From: Methylotenera oryzisoli
GTDB lineage: Bacteria; Pseudomonadota; Gammaproteobacteria; Burkholderiales; Methylophilaceae
Length of the DNA stretch: 64,000 nt
Reading direction: 5' to 3'
Assembly (NCBI RefSeq): GCF_004661485.1
Contig: NZ_PQVH01000008.1
Location: 62,001-126,000, forward strand
Shown here: positions 40,673-61,691 of the stretch, piece after piece
How the letters are laid out: every line of letters begins with the position of its first letter
Position numbering within the stretch: position 1 is the stretch's first letter
Program-made: the position numbers and the translations under genes
Notes under the pieces: model-generated
What the model saw: only the letters and a program-made list of their open reading frames with translations
What the model was told of the DNA's origin: nothing
Database searches by the model: none

Positions 40673-40710
40673 AAGCCAGTACTAGCTCTCAGCTGTACTG
40701 GCTTTTTCTT
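40673..40710 (+). terminator. tRNA-Ser terminator overlapping the int stop
   Basis: Perfect 10-base arms AAGCCAGTAC (40673-40682) and GTACTGGCTT (40695-40704) followed by TTTCTT. The right part lies within the last codons of the convergent integrase gene, so this hairpin also borders that gene. It is element DNA replacing whatever terminator followed the tRNA before integration. Confidence 0.75.
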
Positions 40711-41842
40711 GGGGCAAATTTGGGGCAAATAGGGCGTTATTAACCTTGTCCAGCTCTCGTGACTTATCTGCAAGATCAATCCATTTGCTGTAGACCTCTA
40801 GCGTGATTTTCATATTGGCGTGGCCAAGCTGACGCGCAACCCACATCGGGTTAGCACCGGCCATTAGCATTAGGGTGGCGAACGTGTGTCGCATTTGGTA
40901 GGGGTTACGGTGGTGTAATTTCAGTTGCTTGAGCGTAGGTGTCCAGTAGACCTTACTTTGCGAGCGTTGGTCGTTCCACGTTGTTTCTGTGATTGGGTTA
41001 AGAAACACGTACACTGATTTAAGTTTAGTGTGTGCTTTTTGTCTGGCCAGCGCAGCTTTTGCTCTAGCGTTCAGTTCAACAAAGCGCACCTGGTTAGTCT
41101 TGGTGGTTTTGCTTTCGCCTTCCACCTTAGCGCTGCGCACAACGACTAGTGTTTCTTCAACATCTCCCCATTTCAGATCTATAAGCTCAGAAGTTCTTAG
41201 CCCACTAAAAAAACCAAACTCAAAGTAGTTGAGCACTTGCTCGTTGTACGTGGTTTTAATGTGCTCTAGGATCAGGTTCACTTCATTTATCGTGAATGGG
41301 TCAGGCTCTGGGCGCTGAGCCTTTACGTTGCGGATTCGAGCTGCAGGATTGCTTGCGATGATGCCATCTAAAAACGCGGCATCTAGTATGCGGCGCATTG
41401 GGATTACTATGTTATTTCTGGTTTTAGGTGTGACTTTCAGATCGGCAAGGTGGGCCATCAGTTCGGTGTAGGTGATTTCTGTAATTTTGTGCTTACCGAA
41501 CTTAGGCAACCAGTGCTTGTTTAGGTGCTTTTGATAGGTGGTAAGTGATGATTTAGCCAGCTGGCTATTGGCTTTTAGCCATGTATCGCTTGCGTCTGCG
41601 AAGGTGTCTATCTTTTTAACGCCAGCTTGTGCTTTGGGGGATTCTGGGAAGTAGTCAGCATAATCAAACGTGCCGAGTCCTATTTTGCGTAGAATCTCGG
41701 CACGCAGACCAGCTGCATACTGCATATTGCTTTTAGTAGGTGGTATGTTGATTGTTTCACGGCATCTTGCACCTCGCCATTGAAACGATACTCTTATGCT
41801 GTTGCCACGCTCTTCAATTCCAGTCTCTCGCCGCTGACCCAT
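40682..41842 (-). CDS. int: Phage tyrosine integrase
   Basis: The 386-residue recombinase has an N-terminal arm-binding region of the DUF3596 type (GIEERGNSIRVSFQWRGARCRETI), a core-binding SAM-like domain (about 75-170) and a catalytic domain with Arg in SGLRTSELIDLKWGD, the HxxR of YQMRHTFATLM, His in LGHANMKITLEVYSKWI and the nucleophile Tyr in the last motif. It catalyses integration at tRNA-Ser. It overlaps the excisionase-like gene start by 49 bases. Confidence 0.93.
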   Translation of the reverse strand: MGQRRETGIEERGNSIRVSFQWRGARCRETINIPPTKSNMQYAAGLRAEILRKIGLGTFDYADYFPESPKAQAGVKKIDTFADASDTWLKANSQLAKSSLTTYQKHLNKHWLPKFGKHKITEITYTELMAHLADLKVTPKTRNNIVIPMRRILDAAFLDGIIASNPAARIRNVKAQRPEPDPFTINEVNLILEHIKTTYNEQVLNYFEFGFFSGLRTSELIDLKWGDVEETLVVVRSAKVEGESKTTKTNQVRFVELNARAKAALARQKAHTKLKSVYVFLNPITETTWNDQRSQSKVYWTPTLKQLKLHHRNPYQMRHTFATLMLMAGANPMWVARQLGHANMKITLEVYSKWIDLADKSRELDKVNNALFAPNLPQEKASTAES

Positions 41843-42642: not shown

Positions 42643-43508
42643 GCCTGTAACTCCTGAAATAGTCCTAATGAAGCACCTAATGCGTCTACGCATGCTGGGT
42701 TTAACCAAACAACCTCAGTCCTGATGCTGGTGCCGCGATATGCTGAAGCTCTTGATTTTGTGCTATGTTTTTGCCAGTTGCCACTTGCCAAATTCATCAA
42801 TGCATCATCGTATAAATCGCTTTGGTAGCCGTTGAGCACTACCATACCTTCTACATTTTTTAATTTATCTAGCAGGGCTATATGATCTTGCTCTGTCATT
42901 TCATGCCGGTAGTAGTGATTGTTGTTATCCATTACTCGCGTGTTATGCATGTATGGTGGGTCTACATAAAAAAGTGTTTCAGGCGTGTCATGGTTTTCAA
43001 TCACATTTAAGGCTGGTCGATTTTCAACAAGAACACCTACCAGACGATCAATTATCGGCCTTAATATTGGTGGGTATTTAACCCAGTCCATTTGTGCCGT
43101 TGTGTATCTGCGTGAGGTATCTGACCTAAAGCCAGTGGTGCCTTTTGTTGCGCCACTTGAGCCAAAACCCATTTGGGCGCGAATGATAGTGCGCCTAGCA
43201 CGTTCAATCTCGCAATCAGTATATGTAAATGCTAATTCGAACTCAGATCTAGCAAATAAGGTAATTTCTAGCAGTTGAATTAAGCGTGCGCTCTTTTTAT
43301 CGTCCTGCAGTACGCGAAATAAGTTGACGACATCATCGTCTAGATCGTTATATACCTCTGCATAAGACCTATGTTTTTGCAGCAGTACAGACGCGGCGCC
43401 ACCGAATGGCTCACAATAAATTTTATGGTTAGGGAAGAATTGTATTAACCAAGATGCAAGCCGGAACTTACCACCGTGATATCTTATTAGTGGGCGAGTT
43501 ACTTTCAT
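42639..43508 (-). CDS. DNA adenine methyltransferase, Dam-type (first copy)
   Basis: The 290-residue product is a D12-class adenine-N6 methyltransferase: LIRYHGGKFRLASWL and EPFGGAASVLL bind S-adenosylmethionine and DPPYMHN (Asp183) is the catalytic motif. The start at 43508 has AGGTGG upstream and overlaps the dcm stop (ATGA). Sequence specificity (GATC or other) cannot be told. It forms a coupled pair with the cytosine methyltransferase upstream. Confidence 0.88.
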   Translation of the reverse strand: MKVTRPLIRYHGGKFRLASWLIQFFPNHKIYCEPFGGAASVLLQKHRSYAEVYNDLDDDVVNLFRVLQDDKKSARLIQLLEITLFARSEFELAFTYTDCEIERARRTIIRAQMGFGSSGATKGTTGFRSDTSRRYTTAQMDWVKYPPILRPIIDRLVGVLVENRPALNVIENHDTPETLFYVDPPYMHNTRVMDNNNHYYRHEMTEQDHIALLDKLKNVEGMVVLNGYQSDLYDDALMNLASGNWQKHSTKSRASAYRGTSIRTEVVWLNPACVDALGASLGLFQELQA

Positions 43509-45304
43509 GCTGCACCACCTTGAGCGGCCATCAAACCCGCTACTGTAGGTTGCACCCATACAGGCGCTGCGCTTAGTTGGAATGTTTCCCCAGCCCATGA
43601 CAATAGTAAGGTTCGGAACATTTCACTGGCTACAGCTTGCGCTGCCGGTGGCGGCACTGCGTTACCAATACGCTCACGCCAAGACATATCGTTTAATCCG
43701 TCTAGCTGTAGTTGTTCTTCAGGATCGATAAGGCCTTGCAATGCTGCTAATTCAAGTGTGGTAAATGGGCGATGCCATGTGCCATCCATTGACTGAATAA
43801 TTGCAATTACTTTATCGTTTGATTCTGGAATTCGTGGATCTGCAACAGACCATCTACCATTATCAAATTTACCTGATGCACTGATAGCGCCGCATTTCTC
43901 TTCAAAAGGAACGACACCGTAATGACCACCAGTTAAATAGTTATCACCTTTTTTGCGGTCGATGCCACTGCGTGGATCTGCAACAGCAAAAGCACCTTGC
44001 CCGGTTGTGCTGGCTGCAATCACAGTGTTGCTTGGTGTCTCGTAAGCATTGACGATATATTTTCCAGAACCGTTAAATCCAGTATTGGAACGCGGGTCTG
44101 CTACAGACATAGCTGCACCGGCTACGTGCGCAGCTCCGGTGACAGATCCTGATGCACCTTCAAATTTAACGACGCGGTAAATTCCGTTTTGACGGTTCTT
44201 ACTTTCTGGCATGCGTGGATCTGCAACTGTGTAAATGCCGCCACCTGGTTTAGATTGTGCGCTAACAACACCCATCGTTTTATTGAATGGCAAAACACCA
44301 TACTGGCTGTATTCTTTACCGTTGTAGCGTGGGTCTGCCACAGAAAATTTGCCATTGGCAGGCGATGATTTTCCAGTGACTGTGCCACTTGATTCGTTCC
44401 AATTGTGCACATCTAAATAACCGCTATAAAACTCTGGCACGATTAGGTAATCGCGCAATTTGCCATCCTCGACCGCTAATTTATTCAAGCTGCGCCAATC
44501 GCTACCAGCTTCAACAAATGCCAAGCGAACCCATGTTTTCCATTGTAATGATGGGATGCGGTGCATAGGGCCAGCCGCCAAATCACCTGGTAACAACATG
44601 CGACCTAATACATCGCCAACGGAACGAAGAGGGCGCTTAACTGGCTCATATAGATAGCTAGGCACTTTTTCCATGTGACGTGCGACCAATAGGAAGCGTT
44701 TACGGCTTTGCGCTAAGTTGCCTAACTCACCACAATCATGAGTAGTCTCTGCAACTGCATAGCCATAATGGCGTAATAACTGGTTAATTTGATCGAGCAG
44801 ATATCGGCCACGAGTAGAGATTCGTGGCACGTTTTCAAAAACAATCAACTCTACAGGGTCATCTTTCCATGCTTCGCACATTAACCAAACGCAGCGTAAC
44901 GTTAGCTGATTAAGTGCTTGATACTTTGTAGTTTTGCTTAATGACTCAGAAAGCAAACCAGACAGGCCTTTGCACGGAGACGAAATGAAAACAATGTGAG
45001 GGTGTTCATTGCCTGCAGCAGCTTGGATATCAGCAGGGGTTGCTTCTTTCCAGCTCACAGGAGGCTCTTTGCCATGAAACGAGATGTACTGCTCACGGGT
45101 AAATAAATCCATCACCGTACCTGCACGGCCATCTCCCATTTTGTCAAAGTCACGTATAGCTGCGGCATCTATATCTACACCACCTATGCAACGAGAACGT
45201 GCCACCATATTGCCTACGCGTGCGCTGGCTTGGTTAAATCCTTTTTTACCGCCACCAAGACCGCAGGCAAAGTGAAAGTGATTGATTGTGCGGATATCGT
45301 TCAT
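43505..45304 (-). CDS. C5-cytosine DNA methyltransferase with VADPR repeats
   Basis: The 599-residue enzyme carries the C5-MTase motifs: FACGLGGG (I), the catalytic Cys111 in SSPCKGLSG (IV, with K in place of the usual Q), ENVP at 157-160 (VI), QSRKRF at 199-204 (VIII) and RIGNAVPP near 545 (X). Between VIII and X lies a target-recognition part about 290 residues long containing five copies of VADPR at 322, 360, 401, 441 and 487. It likely modifies the phage or host DNA. A 21-codon open frame ends at its start codon. Confidence 0.88.
   Translation of the reverse strand: MNDIRTINHFHFACGLGGGKKGFNQASARVGNMVARSRCIGGVDIDAAAIRDFDKMGDGRAGTVMDLFTREQYISFHGKEPPVSWKEATPADIQAAAGNEHPHIVFISSPCKGLSGLLSESLSKTTKYQALNQLTLRCVWLMCEAWKDDPVELIVFENVPRISTRGRYLLDQINQLLRHYGYAVAETTHDCGELGNLAQSRKRFLLVARHMEKVPSYLYEPVKRPLRSVGDVLGRMLLPGDLAAGPMHRIPSLQWKTWVRLAFVEAGSDWRSLNKLAVEDGKLRDYLIVPEFYSGYLDVHNWNESSGTVTGKSSPANGKFSVADPRYNGKEYSQYGVLPFNKTMGVVSAQSKPGGGIYTVADPRMPESKNRQNGIYRVVKFEGASGSVTGAAHVAGAAMSVADPRSNTGFNGSGKYIVNAYETPSNTVIAASTTGQGAFAVADPRSGIDRKKGDNYLTGGHYGVVPFEEKCGAISASGKFDNGRWSVADPRIPESNDKVIAIIQSMDGTWHRPFTTLELAALQGLIDPEEQLQLDGLNDMSWRERIGNAVPPPAAQAVASEMFRTLLLSWAGETFQLSAAPVWVQPTVAGLMAAQGGAA
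43832..44341 (-). repeat. Five VADPR repeats in the methyltransferase target-recognition region
   Basis: In protein terms the repeats read VADPR + about 35-41 residues, including a Gly-Tyr-x-Val / Val-x-Phe / Gly-Ser-Val-Thr pattern and a Gly-x-(Phe/Tyr/Trp)-(Ser/Thr/Ala) end. Spacing is 38, 41, 40 and 46 residues. The DNA copies have diverged, so this is an old repeat and not a recent slippage. A sixth, partial unit lies just before the first VADPR (SSGTVTGKSSPANGKF). Confidence 0.85.
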
Positions 45305-46514: not shown

Positions 46515-49205
46515 TTATGCTTCAAAAATCCAGCATTTGACGGTTTCAGGGCGTGCTGGGTTATCAAACCCACGGTGCTTGTTGTGCTCGCGGTTAATTG
46601 CGCTGCTGACTGCTTTGGCCTCTACAAACTTGCGTTTGCGGCTGGTCTTAAGCAGTTTTTTAAGGTCTGATAGCAGCGGGATCTGTTGTTTTTTCTCGGA
46701 TGCAACCTGTACAAAGTGATTGAGGTTAATGGCGATTAGCGCAGGGTCGCAGCTGTGATTGAGGCGAGGCTCTAGGTCGTCACCATTCAAGTATTCGTAG
46801 GCTTCCCAGAAGGCTTGCACGTCTGGGTGATCTGCATTGATAGATTGCTGACGCGCTACCGCCATTTCGACCACTTCATCCCGGGCGGCTTCTAGCATTT
46901 GGTCGTTAATATTGATTACTAGGCTTAGTGCATCTACTAGCGCCAAGATCTGTGCGTGGTTTTTGATGATGCGCAGGTTTTTGATGCCATCTATGTTTTG
47001 CAGCGTTTTTTCGTAGCTGGTAGATTTTTCTTTAAATGCAGCCATGATTGCTGTTTCCGCGGTGATGGCTTTGATTAAAAAGCCTGATAGTTCTTCTACT
47101 GGTGTGCGCTCTAGTTGCTCACCAGCTAACTTGCCCGCAGGGGTGTGGCTTTTAACATCGCAATGGATATGGCAGATACGCTGCATCATTGCATCGCTAG
47201 CTGATACGGTTGCGTTTTGGCTAATCACAATGGCGCCACGGAATGGTGGCTCGTAGGTTTCGTTACCGCCATTTTTAACGCCGCGTGATCGCACTGAGCG
47301 TCCGTTGTAGGCTGTTTTTAGCTCATCCCAATCAAAGGTTTTAGCGTGGGCTTTATCTTCACCACCACGGTCACTTTCGATCAGCACCACTGGCATGCCT
47401 GCCACTTGTGAAAAGTTACGTGCACGTGCGGCTAGTGTTGCTTTTGAAGGGTCGAAGCCTTCGTAATCGTTACGGCCAAGTAGCTTCCATAAAAACTCAA
47501 TCAAGGTGGATTTACCAGCGCCCGGGTCGCCTACTACTTCTAAGAATGGGTAGGACTTGTGATGCTGCCTGATTTGTTCTGCAAATAGGCTGCCCATCCA
47601 AAAGGCTAGTGTGACGATGCCTTTAGCTTGGTAGCACTTCCATAACAGGTTTATCCAATCGGCATTGAACTCTTTGGCATCTGTATTGATGTTTAGCGTG
47701 ACAGACTGGCTAAGTGATTTAATTGATAGTCTGCCAATGTCGAAGAAGTCTTCTTCATTGAGTGGGTGGACTTGTCCGTTTTGCACTGCGATATCATTAA
47801 ATACATAGGTGGCGTGCTCTTTGCTGTAGCCGATGTAGTCAATTGTCTGCACCGTTTTCATGTTGTAGAGCTGGTCTTTAATGATGCGGTCTAGCTGGGA
47901 TGCGTTGCCACTGAACACCGCGCCTGGTGCGATAGATAACAGACGCTTTTTAAACTCTGTAGAGCTTGATAGCTGTGCACCAGTGAATGTGTTTTTAATG
48001 CTGCTTCCGTCATGTGGGAAGTCCACACGTAGGTAGTACCAGCTCTCATCTGTTAAGAGGTTTGCTTGGTAGTACAGGGCTTGTGGGTAGCAGTTGGCGA
48101 TTTCGTACACTGACTTAGCTTCTAGCAGTGCTTTGCCTTTGATTTCATCTGGGCTTAATGCTGTGTTGGCTGATTCACTCTCTTTCTCGATGGCGCTATA
48201 TGACTTGTGGTATTTATCAATATCTAATTGAAACCAAAACATGCGGTTAATAAAACCGTAAAAGAAGCTTTGTTCGCCTGTTTTGTTGTAGATGAGCAGG
48301 GCTTTATCTGTTGCAGATTTAGCAATGAGCAGGGCGCCGTTATATAGGGCCTCTTCAATGGCTTTGTCGTCTAGCTTGCCTAGTTGGTATAGATCGTTCC
48401 AATCTAGCTTTTTACGGTTGCGGTTCTTGATTTGTGCTGCACGTGCTACCCAGCCTTGTTCACGGCTAAGTTCTACGTGTTTACGAATGTACTTGCTGCC
48501 AGCCGCACCATCATCAAGCGCCCACACTAGCTCTGGTAATTCACGACCAGCTGCTTGGCATTGTTCTGCAAGCTCTTTAAGTGCTAGCTCTGGGTAGTTG
48601 TTGCAGCTCATGGCAGAGACTGCAGCACGTCCAGTTTGGATGTGTGAGATTGAGTCGAAGATGCCTTCAACAATCCATACTTGTTTAACGCTAGCGTCTG
48701 TTAGGTCTAGCGTTGGTGCTTTCCACCAGTGGCCTTTGTAGCCGCCTTTAAAGTTGGCTTTTTGACTGCCAAAGCGCTGTGGCTTATCAATTAATCGTTC
48801 CCAAAATGCACCGTTAGGCAATTGAAAGCGTACGGTTGCCGATCCTATTTTCTTTTCAGAATCGTAGAAGCTCTCTTGGGTGTACCAACCTTTAATAGTA
48901 CTGATATCAAAACCACGGCCATCACGCATATAAGCATCTGCTGATGCGTTAGGTTCAGCAGGTGTAGGTTTGTGACGATCTGACCAGTTGTTAAATAGAT
49001 CAGGGTAGAGGTCTTTAATATGAAACTCTGCACCGCATTTGTTTAAGCGGCCACAACGTAGAACCCAAGGCGCGTCTGCAAAGGTGTATAGCTCTTTCTT
49101 TTTACAAGATGGGCATTCACCTTGTTGCAGATGGTTGCCATGCTTCTTGAATGAGAAGTCACGGTCTAGGTGTCTGCTTATGTCGCTATGTAGGCTTGGG
49201 TTCAT
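46515..49205 (-). CDS. Phage primase-helicase (Toprim and P-loop)
   Basis: About 896 residues. A zinc-binding region (GECPSCKKKE... LRCGRLNKC, about 30-60) resembles phage primases. A Toprim fold (WIVEGIFDS near 178; ALDDGAAG near 230) makes or binds RNA primers, and a P-loop (GDPGAGKST near 560) with LIESDRGGEDK fits a superfamily 3-like or DUF927 helicase. This would load at an origin rather than nick it, unlike P2 gpA. Start at 49205 (MNPSLHSD) is a guess; the GTG at 49244 is the alternative. Confidence 0.8.
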   Translation of the reverse strand: MNPSLHSDISRHLDRDFSFKKHGNHLQQGECPSCKKKELYTFADAPWVLRCGRLNKCGAEFHIKDLYPDLFNNWSDRHKPTPAEPNASADAYMRDGRGFDISTIKGWYTQESFYDSEKKIGSATVRFQLPNGAFWERLIDKPQRFGSQKANFKGGYKGHWWKAPTLDLTDASVKQVWIVEGIFDSISHIQTGRAAVSAMSCNNYPELALKELAEQCQAAGRELPELVWALDDGAAGSKYIRKHVELSREQGWVARAAQIKNRNRKKLDWNDLYQLGKLDDKAIEEALYNGALLIAKSATDKALLIYNKTGEQSFFYGFINRMFWFQLDIDKYHKSYSAIEKESESANTALSPDEIKGKALLEAKSVYEIANCYPQALYYQANLLTDESWYYLRVDFPHDGSSIKNTFTGAQLSSSTEFKKRLLSIAPGAVFSGNASQLDRIIKDQLYNMKTVQTIDYIGYSKEHATYVFNDIAVQNGQVHPLNEEDFFDIGRLSIKSLSQSVTLNINTDAKEFNADWINLLWKCYQAKGIVTLAFWMGSLFAEQIRQHHKSYPFLEVVGDPGAGKSTLIEFLWKLLGRNDYEGFDPSKATLAARARNFSQVAGMPVVLIESDRGGEDKAHAKTFDWDELKTAYNGRSVRSRGVKNGGNETYEPPFRGAIVISQNATVSASDAMMQRICHIHCDVKSHTPAGKLAGEQLERTPVEELSGFLIKAITAETAIMAAFKEKSTSYEKTLQNIDGIKNLRIIKNHAQILALVDALSLVININDQMLEAARDEVVEMAVARQQSINADHPDVQAFWEAYEYLNGDDLEPRLNHSCDPALIAINLNHFVQVASEKKQQIPLLSDLKKLLKTSRKRKFVEAKAVSSAINREHNKHRGFDNPARPETVKCWIFEA

Positions 49206-49319
49206 GGTCAAATCACAAATTTTGGGTAAAAAAATCCTTAACACCTTAAAAAAGGCGCTTTCGGGTGGTGCTTGTTTTGGGCTATTGGTTAGCTTGATTT
49301 GGCGCTGATGCGCCTAGCG

Positions 49320-50463: not shown

Positions 50464-50474
50464 AGTTACTAAGT
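50464..50474. promoter_or_regulatory. Operator-like element between the early operon and cI
   Basis: AGTTACTAAGT lies in the 58-base gap between the divergent regulator genes, beside a TATAAT (50449-50454) facing cI. Its exact reverse complement occurs at 53091-53101, and a related half-palindrome at 53022-53032. It is the best candidate for a repressor site. Confidence 0.55.
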
Positions 50475-50502
50475 GCGTTCATTATTACGAAGAAAAATTC
50501 TT

Positions 50503-50865
50503 ATGTCAACAGAAATAACCGAATATTTATTCGCAATTGGGCAGAGATTTAAGAGTGAGCGTGAAAGATTGGGTTTCACGCAGGCTCAGCTTGGGGAAAA
50601 AATAGAGGCGACTAGCCGAACTATTGGTAAGTACGAAATCGGCGAAACTGAGGCGAGAATTAGTCAACTACTTAACTTCATGAGGTTAGGTGCAGACATT
50701 AATTACATATTGCTTGGTTCGCGTGCGGGATTAGTCACTGGTGAACCTAAAGCTTCTTATCAAAATGCGGAGCTAGATATGATACTTAATGCTTATGCAC
50801 ATGCTGATGAGTTGGGTCGTGCTGCGCTGGCGGCCGTTGCTACTTTTGTAGCAAAACATAATTAA
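50503..50865 (+). CDS. CI-like repressor (XRE-family HTH)
   Basis: About 120 residues with a clean helix-turn-helix of the XRE/434 type (IGQRFKSERERLGFTQAQLGEKIEATSRTIGKYEIGETEAR) and a short helical tail rather than a LexA-type protease domain. The start at 50503 (MSTEITEY) is preferred over TTG at 50473. It probably binds the nearby AGTTA-type sites to keep lysogeny. It is rather shorter than P2-like C repressors but close to them in size (P2 C is 99). Confidence 0.8.
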   Translation: MSTEITEYLFAIGQRFKSERERLGFTQAQLGEKIEATSRTIGKYEIGETEARISQLLNFMRLGADINYILLGSRAGLVTGEPKASYQNAELDMILNAYAHADELGRAALAAVATFVAKHN

Positions 50866-51599: not shown

Positions 51600-52265
51600 A
51601 TGGGACGTTACTATTTAGCCTTAGCCATTTCTCTTTTAGTACCAGCCATCTGCTTTGCTGGCACACTGTCAGGCGTTGTAGTTGGCATTAAGGATGGTGA
51701 CACCATTTACCTTTTAACGCCTGATCGCCAAAAAAAAGAAGTGAGATTTAATGCAATAGATGCGCCAGAAAAGGCACAGCCGTTTTACAACAAATCACAG
51801 CAGTCATTATCTAACTTATGCGCGGGAAAAGATGCCACCGTCAATACCTATGGGCTTGATAAGTATGGACGCACGCTAGGTGATGTATTTTGCCAAGGTA
51901 AAAGCGCAAACGTGCACCAGGTTGAGAATGGGTATGCATGGGTTTACAGACAGTATAGCAATGATGCGAACTTGATAGCGCTAGAAGCTGCAGCAAGATC
52001 TAAAGGGATAGGGTTGTGGAACGACCCGTCACCAATTCCACCATGGGATTTCAGGCATGGAAAAAGGCCAGAAACCTTTGAACAAACGCAGGCGAGGGTA
52101 AAGGCATCAGCAAATAGTGCTGAGGGCTTTAGCTGTGGTAGTAAAAGATATTGCCGACAAATGGTGAGCTGTGAAGAGGCTAGGTTTTATTTAAAACAGT
52201 GTGGCTTGCATAAGTTAGATAAAGATGGTGATGGTGTGCCGTGCGAGGTGCTTTGTGGTGGGTGA
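51600..52265 (+). CDS. Exported thermonuclease-like enzyme with Excalibur domain
   Basis: A 221-residue protein with a signal peptide (MGRYYLALAISLLVPAICFA|G), a staphylococcal-nuclease (SNc) fold (VVVGIKDGDTIYLLTPD, VRFNAIDAPEKAQ, YGLDKYGRTLGDVF; catalytic Arg and Glu sites consistent) and a C-terminal Excalibur calcium-binding motif (LDKDGDGVPCE with flanking cysteines). It should act outside the cytoplasm. In a prophage that suggests degradation of incoming DNA or scavenging; this is inference. Confidence 0.82.
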   Translation: MGRYYLALAISLLVPAICFAGTLSGVVVGIKDGDTIYLLTPDRQKKEVRFNAIDAPEKAQPFYNKSQQSLSNLCAGKDATVNTYGLDKYGRTLGDVFCQGKSANVHQVENGYAWVYRQYSNDANLIALEAAARSKGIGLWNDPSPIPPWDFRHGKRPETFEQTQARVKASANSAEGFSCGSKRYCRQMVSCEEARFYLKQCGLHKLDKDGDGVPCEVLCGG

Positions 52266-60684: not shown

Positions 60685-60885
60685 ATGACTAACGATGAAT
60701 TTAACCAATGCCAGTTAAAAGTTAAACTGGATTTTAGAGTGGTAGAGGCTGCGCGTTTTGTGCTGGTGCATGCTGGATCAGTAGATACAGCCGTGGCCTT
60801 ATACTTTGCGCATGTGGCCGATGGTAAAGAAAAGGTACTCTCGGCTATTAAACTGTTTCAAGAGTACCTTAATGATAAAGATTAA
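60685..60885 (+). CDS. KorA/TrfB-like small repressor
   Basis: A 66-residue protein that aligns by eye to the KorA/TrfB family: an acidic TNDEF start, RVVEAARFVLVHAGSVDTAVALYF, and KVLSAIKLFQEYLNDKD, the pattern ...TIExARxVLVxG..., V..AV..VW..Y. The central helix-turn-helix region is shortened and divergent. KorA binds TTTAGCTAAA. Opposite orientation to its neighbours and a private promoter fit a regulator. Its stop overlaps that of the convergent dam gene. Confidence 0.5.
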   Translation: MTNDEFNQCQLKVKLDFRVVEAARFVLVHAGSVDTAVALYFAHVADGKEKVLSAIKLFQEYLNDKD

Positions 60886-61691
60886 AAGAGGCCGCTGGCT
60901 TTCATTGGGTCGTAGTTCGTGATCACAACTTCTTTACTGGTTTCTGCGCTACCGTGCACATTGGCTACGCTGTACTTAATGCCTAAGGCTTCACCGTCTA
61001 GAATAGTTAAGCCATCGAATGCAGCACGGATATCTGGGTGATCGTTTAGGCTTACCATCACCTTGCCTTTGCAGGTTTTCATGAAGGCTGCCATTTTTTC
61101 GTATTCTTCAAACTCAAACGGCACACCGTAACCCTCTGTTTGCCAGTAGGGTGGGTCGCAATAAAAGAAGCTGTGCGGCCTGTCGTAGCGTTTCATGCAG
61201 TCTAGCCATGGCAGATTTTCAACTTGCGTGCCTTGTGCCAACCTTACCCATGCATTTGATAGGCTTTCTTCTATGCGTAATATATTGATGGCTGGTGCGG
61301 TTGTGGCTGTGCCGTAGTTTTGACCTTCAACTTTGCCGCCAAACGCATGGTGCTGCAGATAATAAAACCGTGCTGCGCGTTGAATGTCTGTGAGGGTTTC
61401 TGGGCGGGTCATCTTTGCCCATTCAAACAGCTGGCGGCTACTGATAGACCATTTAAAATGACGGACGAACTCTTCAAGGTGGCTTTGGAGTACACGATAC
61501 AAGCGTACTAGATCACCATTGATATCGTTGAGGACTTCAACCTTTGCTGGCTGCGGCCTTAGAAAGTAGAGTGCTGCACCGCCGCAAAACACTTCTACAT
61601 AACATTCATGGGCTGGGAATAGGGGGATTAACTTGTCGGCAAGACGGCGTTTACCGCCCATCCAAGGGATAACTGGCACTGCATTTGACAT
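60882..61691 (-). CDS. DNA adenine methyltransferase, Dam-type (second copy)
   Basis: A 269-residue D12-class enzyme, distinct from the early one. IPWMGGKRRLADKLIPLFP and EVFCGGAALYFL form the SAM-binding part and YCDPPYWQT (Asp179) is the catalytic motif. AAGG lies seven bases upstream. It is in the late region, between sheath and tail-fibre genes, a common place for Dam in P2-like phages. It has a long leader with a nested dyad. Confidence 0.9.
   Translation of the reverse strand: MSNAVPVIPWMGGKRRLADKLIPLFPAHECYVEVFCGGAALYFLRPQPAKVEVLNDINGDLVRLYRVLQSHLEEFVRHFKWSISSRQLFEWAKMTRPETLTDIQRAARFYYLQHHAFGGKVEGQNYGTATTAPAINILRIEESLSNAWVRLAQGTQVENLPWLDCMKRYDRPHSFFYCDPPYWQTEGYGVPFEFEEYEKMAAFMKTCKGKVMVSLNDHPDIRAAFDGLTILDGEALGIKYSVANVHGSAETSKEVVITNYDPMKASGLF

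Follow-up and report, generated by a model that had tools for sequence, protein, structure and literature searches.

A prophage gene of Methylotenera oryzisoli encodes a DNA cytosine-C5 methyltransferase in which the segment between motifs VIII and IX is built of five tandem units; among its relatives these units vary in number and are inserted, deleted and exchanged whole. The gene lies in a 64,000-nucleotide stretch of contig NZ_PQVH01000008.1 (positions 62,001 to 126,000 of the forward strand; hereafter the window, whose numbering is used for all coordinates). We consider it likely that the protein is an orphan multispecific methyltransferase of a prophage, with tandem, exchangeable recognition cassettes that probably serve anti-restriction.

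A preliminary description of the window had reported five units in this enzyme, each beginning with VADPR. The five VADPR sequences are present at residues 322, 360, 401, 441 and 487, and the span given for them, 43832-44341, is exact, running from the first VADPR through the end of the fifth. The phase, however, was wrong: each unit ends with VADPR, since a similar part (residues 287-326) precedes the first copy and the sequence after the fifth runs into motif IX. The five full units occupy residues 287-491. A unit profile made from 278 seed units, which take in those of L001, an IMG/VR copy identical to the window, detected five units within residues 286-495 with scores of 47.9, 46.8, 48.4, 46.9 and 59.5 bits; 1000 shuffles of the repeat stretch gave at best 6.4, which bears out the five-repeat region. 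In pairwise comparison the units are 29-45% identical. Their reported divergence at the DNA level is correct, since the only repeat found at that level is a 24-nt family of three copies, with 67% and 92% to the reference.

The 599-residue protein scored 47.7 bits against PF00145 (E = 1.9e-12), above the cut-off of 22, and matched PHROG 116 'DNA methyltransferase' with E = 6e-47; its score against TIGR00675 (dcm) was below the cut-off of that family (37 versus 100.65). In an alignment of 72 sequences that includes the window protein (A2), C110, E156-N157-V158, R200, R202 and G546-N547 (A2 numbering) are invariant and Q198 is kept in at least 90% of the sequences. We take these to be the catalytic Cys of motif IV, the ENV motif, the QxRxR motif and the GN of motif X. 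The P-C-K at residues 110-112 (109-111 in A2 numbering) is likewise invariant across the 72 sequences and is present in all five distant homologues translated. The substitution of PCK for the usual PCQ, to which the preliminary description had drawn attention, is thus real but a family trait, and the catalytic Cys is retained. Motif IX, missing from the motifs listed there, is present (RPFTTLELAALQ, residues 512-523), downstream of the fifth unit; residues 511-567 were matched to DNMT1 by phmmer. An AlphaFold model of the full-length protein, for which 72 sequences including that of the window were taken from more than 240 collected, has block means of 73-96 in the catalytic half up to residue 240, except for 56 at residues 111-120. 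This half is thus well predicted, and with it Foldseek retrieved C5 methyltransferases in PDB (DNMT1, M.HaeIII and M.HhaI); the TM-scores were low, as the model leaves the repeats unresolved. Judged by profile and conserved motifs, the protein is a C5 methyltransferase, and C5 methylation of cytosine is predicted.

Relatives were collected from IMG/VR (among the matches listed) and from genomes. Of the resulting 244 loci, three had no usable open reading frame (ORF) and two gave proteins without a boundary motif; the remaining 239 yielded 199 distinct proteins. Searching with the profile of a single unit, a check suggested in the preliminary description, recovered the five window units. Of the 199 proteins, 6 have three units, 42 have four, 97 have five, 52 have six, one has seven and one has eight. 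In a redundant set of 267 ORFs, which adds Paenibacillus and rhizobial-phage loci, the numbers for three to ten units are 6, 46, 130, 67, 6, 5, 6 and 1. Repeat number, whose constancy would have counted against a variable array, therefore ranges from 3 to 10 among homologues. The median length of the region in the 199 proteins is 172, 210, 250, 288, 326 and 383 aa for three to eight units, and region length is quantised, with a period of 39.5 aa and a phase concentration of 0.90. At 62% identity the 998 units of these proteins fall into 54 types, which form 95 architectures. The final position is occupied by type A in 194/199 arrays and the opening position by type D or I in 183/199, and interior types shift position (C is seen at positions 3-5 and J at positions 2-4).

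Eight close pairs were aligned as DNA. L024 and L035 are separated by a single-unit gap of 120 bp, with 78-100% in 60-bp windows, and single-unit gaps of 120, 117 and 126 bp were found in L161/L119, L013/L069 and L102/L069, respectively. In L027/L039, unit 4 has been replaced: two 60-bp windows are at 56-71% and the remaining ones at 81-98%. The three other pairs comprise L015/L058 and L042/L053, which differ more widely, and L049/L051, with almost no difference. Overall, 586 pairs that are at least 93% identical have different architectures. Among pairs at least 95% identical in the catalytic half, 44/107 differ in unit number, a rate that is overstated because near-duplicates of equal number had been removed beforehand. 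A 160-tip tree of the catalytic half requires at least 46 changes in unit number, compared with a mean of 72.9 and a minimum of 65 in 100 label shuffles; these changes are thus fewer than with shuffled labels, but many. The same tree needs 118 changes for architecture, 40 for first-unit type and 3 for last-unit type, the shuffle comparison having been made for unit number. A further observation, identical units on backbones of 38% identity, was dropped, as the identity was ungapped and broken by indels; correlations and low-identity bins were dropped likewise. The variability that the preliminary description proposed for this region is therefore real, and extends to gain, loss and replacement of whole units; that the region reads targets, its other proposal, we infer. 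The very regular period and the nearly fixed, cap-like types at the first and last positions would also suit a composite solenoid that reads one long or repeated target, with unit number setting target length. We find this reading unlikely, given that unit number and unit types change between near-identical enzymes and that the columns of the unit correspond to the TL core found in ordinary enzymes with a single recognition domain.

According to the portion of PMC2413257 available, the C-terminal part of the recognition domain has a consensus, the TL motif, which lies 10-50 aa upstream of motif IX; specificity-diagnostic trimers have been proposed on both sides of it, and Trautner et al. are credited with noting TL and applying it to multispecific enzymes. 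When the unit profile was run on 61 ordinary C5 enzymes (59 from the best-scoring loci plus two of phi3T), 10 scored above 0 bits, in each case where the recognition domain has its TL motif. The unit and ordinary enzymes such as L306 (YRRIKWDEPSPTIT) have equal spacing from an aromatic residue to a T-[VI] pair, and the sole match reported by hhalign aligns columns 8-29 of the unit with the ordinary TL region (P = 0.005). This is a resemblance at the right place rather than proof of descent. Since every unit is similar to the core of a target-recognition domain of the ordinary kind, 'multiple targets' is favoured over 'repeated targets', both of which the preliminary description had offered.

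Most of the columns flanking TL (7-11 and 25-35) set the types strongly apart and change little inside a type, and columns 16 and 18-21 vary everywhere. Columns 10 and 11 have between- to within-type entropy ratios of 3.7 and 6.3, columns 30-32 have 6.3-14, and columns 16 and 18-21 have 1.2-1.6; ratios are generally raised because the types came from identity clustering, and we use the contrast between columns, not the absolute values. Such a pattern is what would be expected of flanks that carry specificity. These type-specific columns beside the TL site, the resemblance to TL regions, and the position of the repeats where C5 enzymes read DNA all argue against a protein-binding or structural spacer with no role in target choice. 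A spacer would fit with the repeat region having no match in Pfam, a three-unit profile having none among PDB sequences, and no confident fold having been obtained; on balance we consider it very unlikely.

At the TL threonine site, the window units 1-5 carry T, V, S, T and A. Among the relatives, this threonine is present in 74% of interior units and is replaced by Ala in 98% of last and 57% of second units; given its replacement there, the last unit may be a cap. The absence of the threonine from many first and second units, together with the near-constant type of the last (194/199), could alternatively mean that one unit works, for example the last, which adjoins motif IX, and that the others are decayed copies. 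We regard this as quite improbable, since the threonine is missing precisely from the last unit and the interior units are under constraint. The ratio of nonsynonymous to synonymous substitution (dN/dS) over 47 independent pairs, restricted to equal architecture, which lowers dN, is 0.088 for interior units, 0.097 for the last, 0.184 for the first and 0.091 for the catalytic half. Purifying selection on the interior units is thus as strong as on the catalytic half, and the first unit is held more loosely. Interior units also retain Asp-Pro-Arg, a weak argument, as the profile used to find units rewards it.

Several results weigh against the units being recognition cassettes. The hhalign probability is just 7%, and 51/61 ordinary enzymes have no unit match above 0; the ten positive scores are low (1.2-11.6 bits), and five of them (L312, L313 and L315-L317) come from near relatives. 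In a position-specific scoring matrix scan of 8 ordinary enzymes, the scores were no better than those of shuffles, and at most four of the eight best places fell at or near a TL-like site (L293, L296, L301). A strict TL is found in 122/199 first, 52/199 second, 295/401 interior and 1/199 last units; with a relaxed definition (T, S, A or V) the numbers become 190/199, 188/199, 395/401 and 194/199, and for all units together they are 470/998 (strict T) and 967/998 (relaxed). Framework columns 12-14 and 22 likewise reach intermediate entropy ratios of 2.7-3.8. The structure prediction suggested in the preliminary description gave no confident repeat fold: in the full-length AlphaFold model, residues 286-505 are below 50 in predicted local distance difference test (pLDDT), and a three-unit model, made with 89 tandem triplets picked for diversity out of 718 distinct ones, reached a pLDDT of 61 and a predicted template-modelling score (pTM) of 0.27, so that we claim no fold. 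Finally, the phi3T enzyme (L278:25237-26550), which we take to be bispecific, gave no unit-profile match above 0 (its best score, -5.0 bits, lay off its TL site), and its sequence has no VADPR.

The gene sits in a prophage, which also contains genes for an integrase (40682-41842) and a primase (46515-49244) as well as for tail sheath, tape measure and GPD. The methyltransferase gene is accessory: none of 60 other related genomes, 36 from the same genus among them, has it; in a class-level survey of 185 genomes, the sole full match was the window's own genome, and one other genome had a weak partial match (24% over residues 142-247). A search of E. coli genomes for near-identical DNA gave no match. 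By tblastn, 36 phage records were matched (31 Pseudomonas), 32 of them covering at least 80% of the query. Matches also lie in 165 plasmid records (91 Pseudomonas; others include Roseomonas, Burkholderia, Paenibacillus and Bacillus). A Pfam scan of part of the region's ORFs, five at 40.7-49.2 kb and ten at 49.6-63.3 kb, named no restriction enzyme.

We propose that the TL motif and its flanks, which form the core of a recognition domain, have been multiplied to give cassettes of ~39.5 residues between motifs VIII and IX, and that a single catalytic domain would be served by several recognition units in turn. Each unit would dock over the active site and bring flanking segments of its own to a distinct short DNA target, which would allow one enzyme to methylate several sequences and protect phage or plasmid DNA from several restriction enzymes. 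The two end positions of the array, largely fixed in type, may act as structural caps, with interior units gained, lost and replaced through recombination. The anti-restriction role is suggested by the phage and plasmid location and by the available portions of papers on Bacillus phages (PMC12707154, PMC8936443). We are evenly divided on a broader proposal, that this is a cross-phylum family of phages and plasmids with a combinatorial array, in which ~54 types of near-equal length, lying between near-fixed end units and each reading its own short target, are recombined to give the same catalytic half differing sets of up to ~10 specificities.

Temperate phages of Bacillus carry multiple target recognition domains arrayed in one polypeptide, as stated in the part of PMC12707154 available, and their multispecific C5 enzymes include those of SPR, phi3T, rho11, H2 and phiBssHII, studied by Trautner, Noyer-Weidner and colleagues (PMC8936443 and PMC12707154, each likewise in part). 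The family described here is similar in being phage-borne and in joining several recognition domains in tandem to one C5 catalytic core, the domains being recognised here by sequence only. Unlike in the phi3T enzyme, the units share one framework ending in VADPR, with a ~39.5-aa period, 3-10 copies and exchange of cassettes. The enzyme would thus work like those of the Bacillus phages, with an array that is more regular and often larger; a link by lineage is not supported by the comparison, which was made with the phi3T enzyme. With ordinary monospecific C5 enzymes (M.HaeIII, M.HhaI and M.BsaHI type) it shares the catalytic motifs and the fold of the catalytic half, and their single TL-motif region resembles one unit in 10/61; in contrast, the TL element occurs once there and 3-10 times here, and motif IV here reads PCK. 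Homologues of the same family occur in Pseudomonas phages LKA5, H66 and Dobby and in Sinorhizobium phage PBC5, whose protein has eight units. These are annotated, for example, as cytosine methyltransferase, DNA methylase, phage protein or hypothetical protein, none with mention of an array, and in the database rows examined the gene products have general names only, such as DNA cytosine methyltransferase or hypothetical protein. Titles and abstract beginnings of open-licence literature, among the matches listed, contained no description of such an array, although an earlier one in print is possible; of the papers retrieved, PMC4936722 deals, in the part available, with an m4C enzyme and PMC3483164, likewise in part, with a phage restriction-modification pair. 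In this widespread family, proteins that are otherwise nearly identical have gained or lost regular recognition units of almost uniform length as cassettes. Natural pairs that differ by one unit allow one to ask which unit reads which target and how many units one catalytic domain serves, and they bear on how phages adjust their protection against restriction systems. If the proposal is true, the arrays would form a natural cassette code, and comparisons of methylomes could reveal its rules linking units to targets.

Features of the methyltransferase gene in window coordinates
Feature	Coordinates	Strand	Remarks and basis
DNA cytosine-C5 methyltransferase gene with five tandem recognition units (predicted)	43505..45304	-	599 aa, ATG start; PF00145, PHROG 116
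Catalytic half, residues 1-286	44447..45304	-	motifs I (ACGLGGG), IV (SPCKG), VI (ENV), VIII (QSRKR); invariant alignment columns
Unit 1, residues 287-326	44327..44446	-	type I; unit typing, unit profile
Unit 2, residues 327-364	44213..44326	-	type M; unit typing, unit profile
Unit 3, residues 365-405	44090..44212	-	type Q, rare (2/998 units); unit typing, unit profile
Unit 4, residues 406-445	43970..44089	-	type C, found at positions 3, 4 and 5 elsewhere; unit typing, unit profile
Unit 5, residues 446-491	43832..43969	-	type A, usual terminal type; unit typing, unit profile
Linker, motif IX (RPFTTLELAALQ), motif X (GNAVPP) and C-terminus, residues 492-599	43505..43831	-	translation, alignment

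The same prophage carries two D12-class adenine methyltransferases, one overlapping the end of the C5 gene (42639-43598, minus strand) and one near the tail genes (60882-61691, minus strand). An adenine methyltransferase as conserved partner was considered and rejected, as 10/247 loci have the start of a D12 gene within 1.5 kb downstream. An ORF at 51600-52265 (plus strand) combines a Staphylococcal-nuclease domain with an Excalibur domain, and a helix-turn-helix gene lies nearby at 50473-50865. Among the relatives, L023, L059 and L060 have an additional insert of ~22-26 residues between motifs IX and X. Two family members, L145 and L146, are located on a single Pseudomonas oryzihabitans plasmid (NZ_CP102430), and another, L158, is on a contig labelled Streptomyces sp., perhaps through contamination. 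An RFGSG segment follows the TL site both in unit 4 of L035 and in members from Bacillus/Paenibacillus plasmids (L247-L249); this unit is perhaps one specificity shared across phyla.
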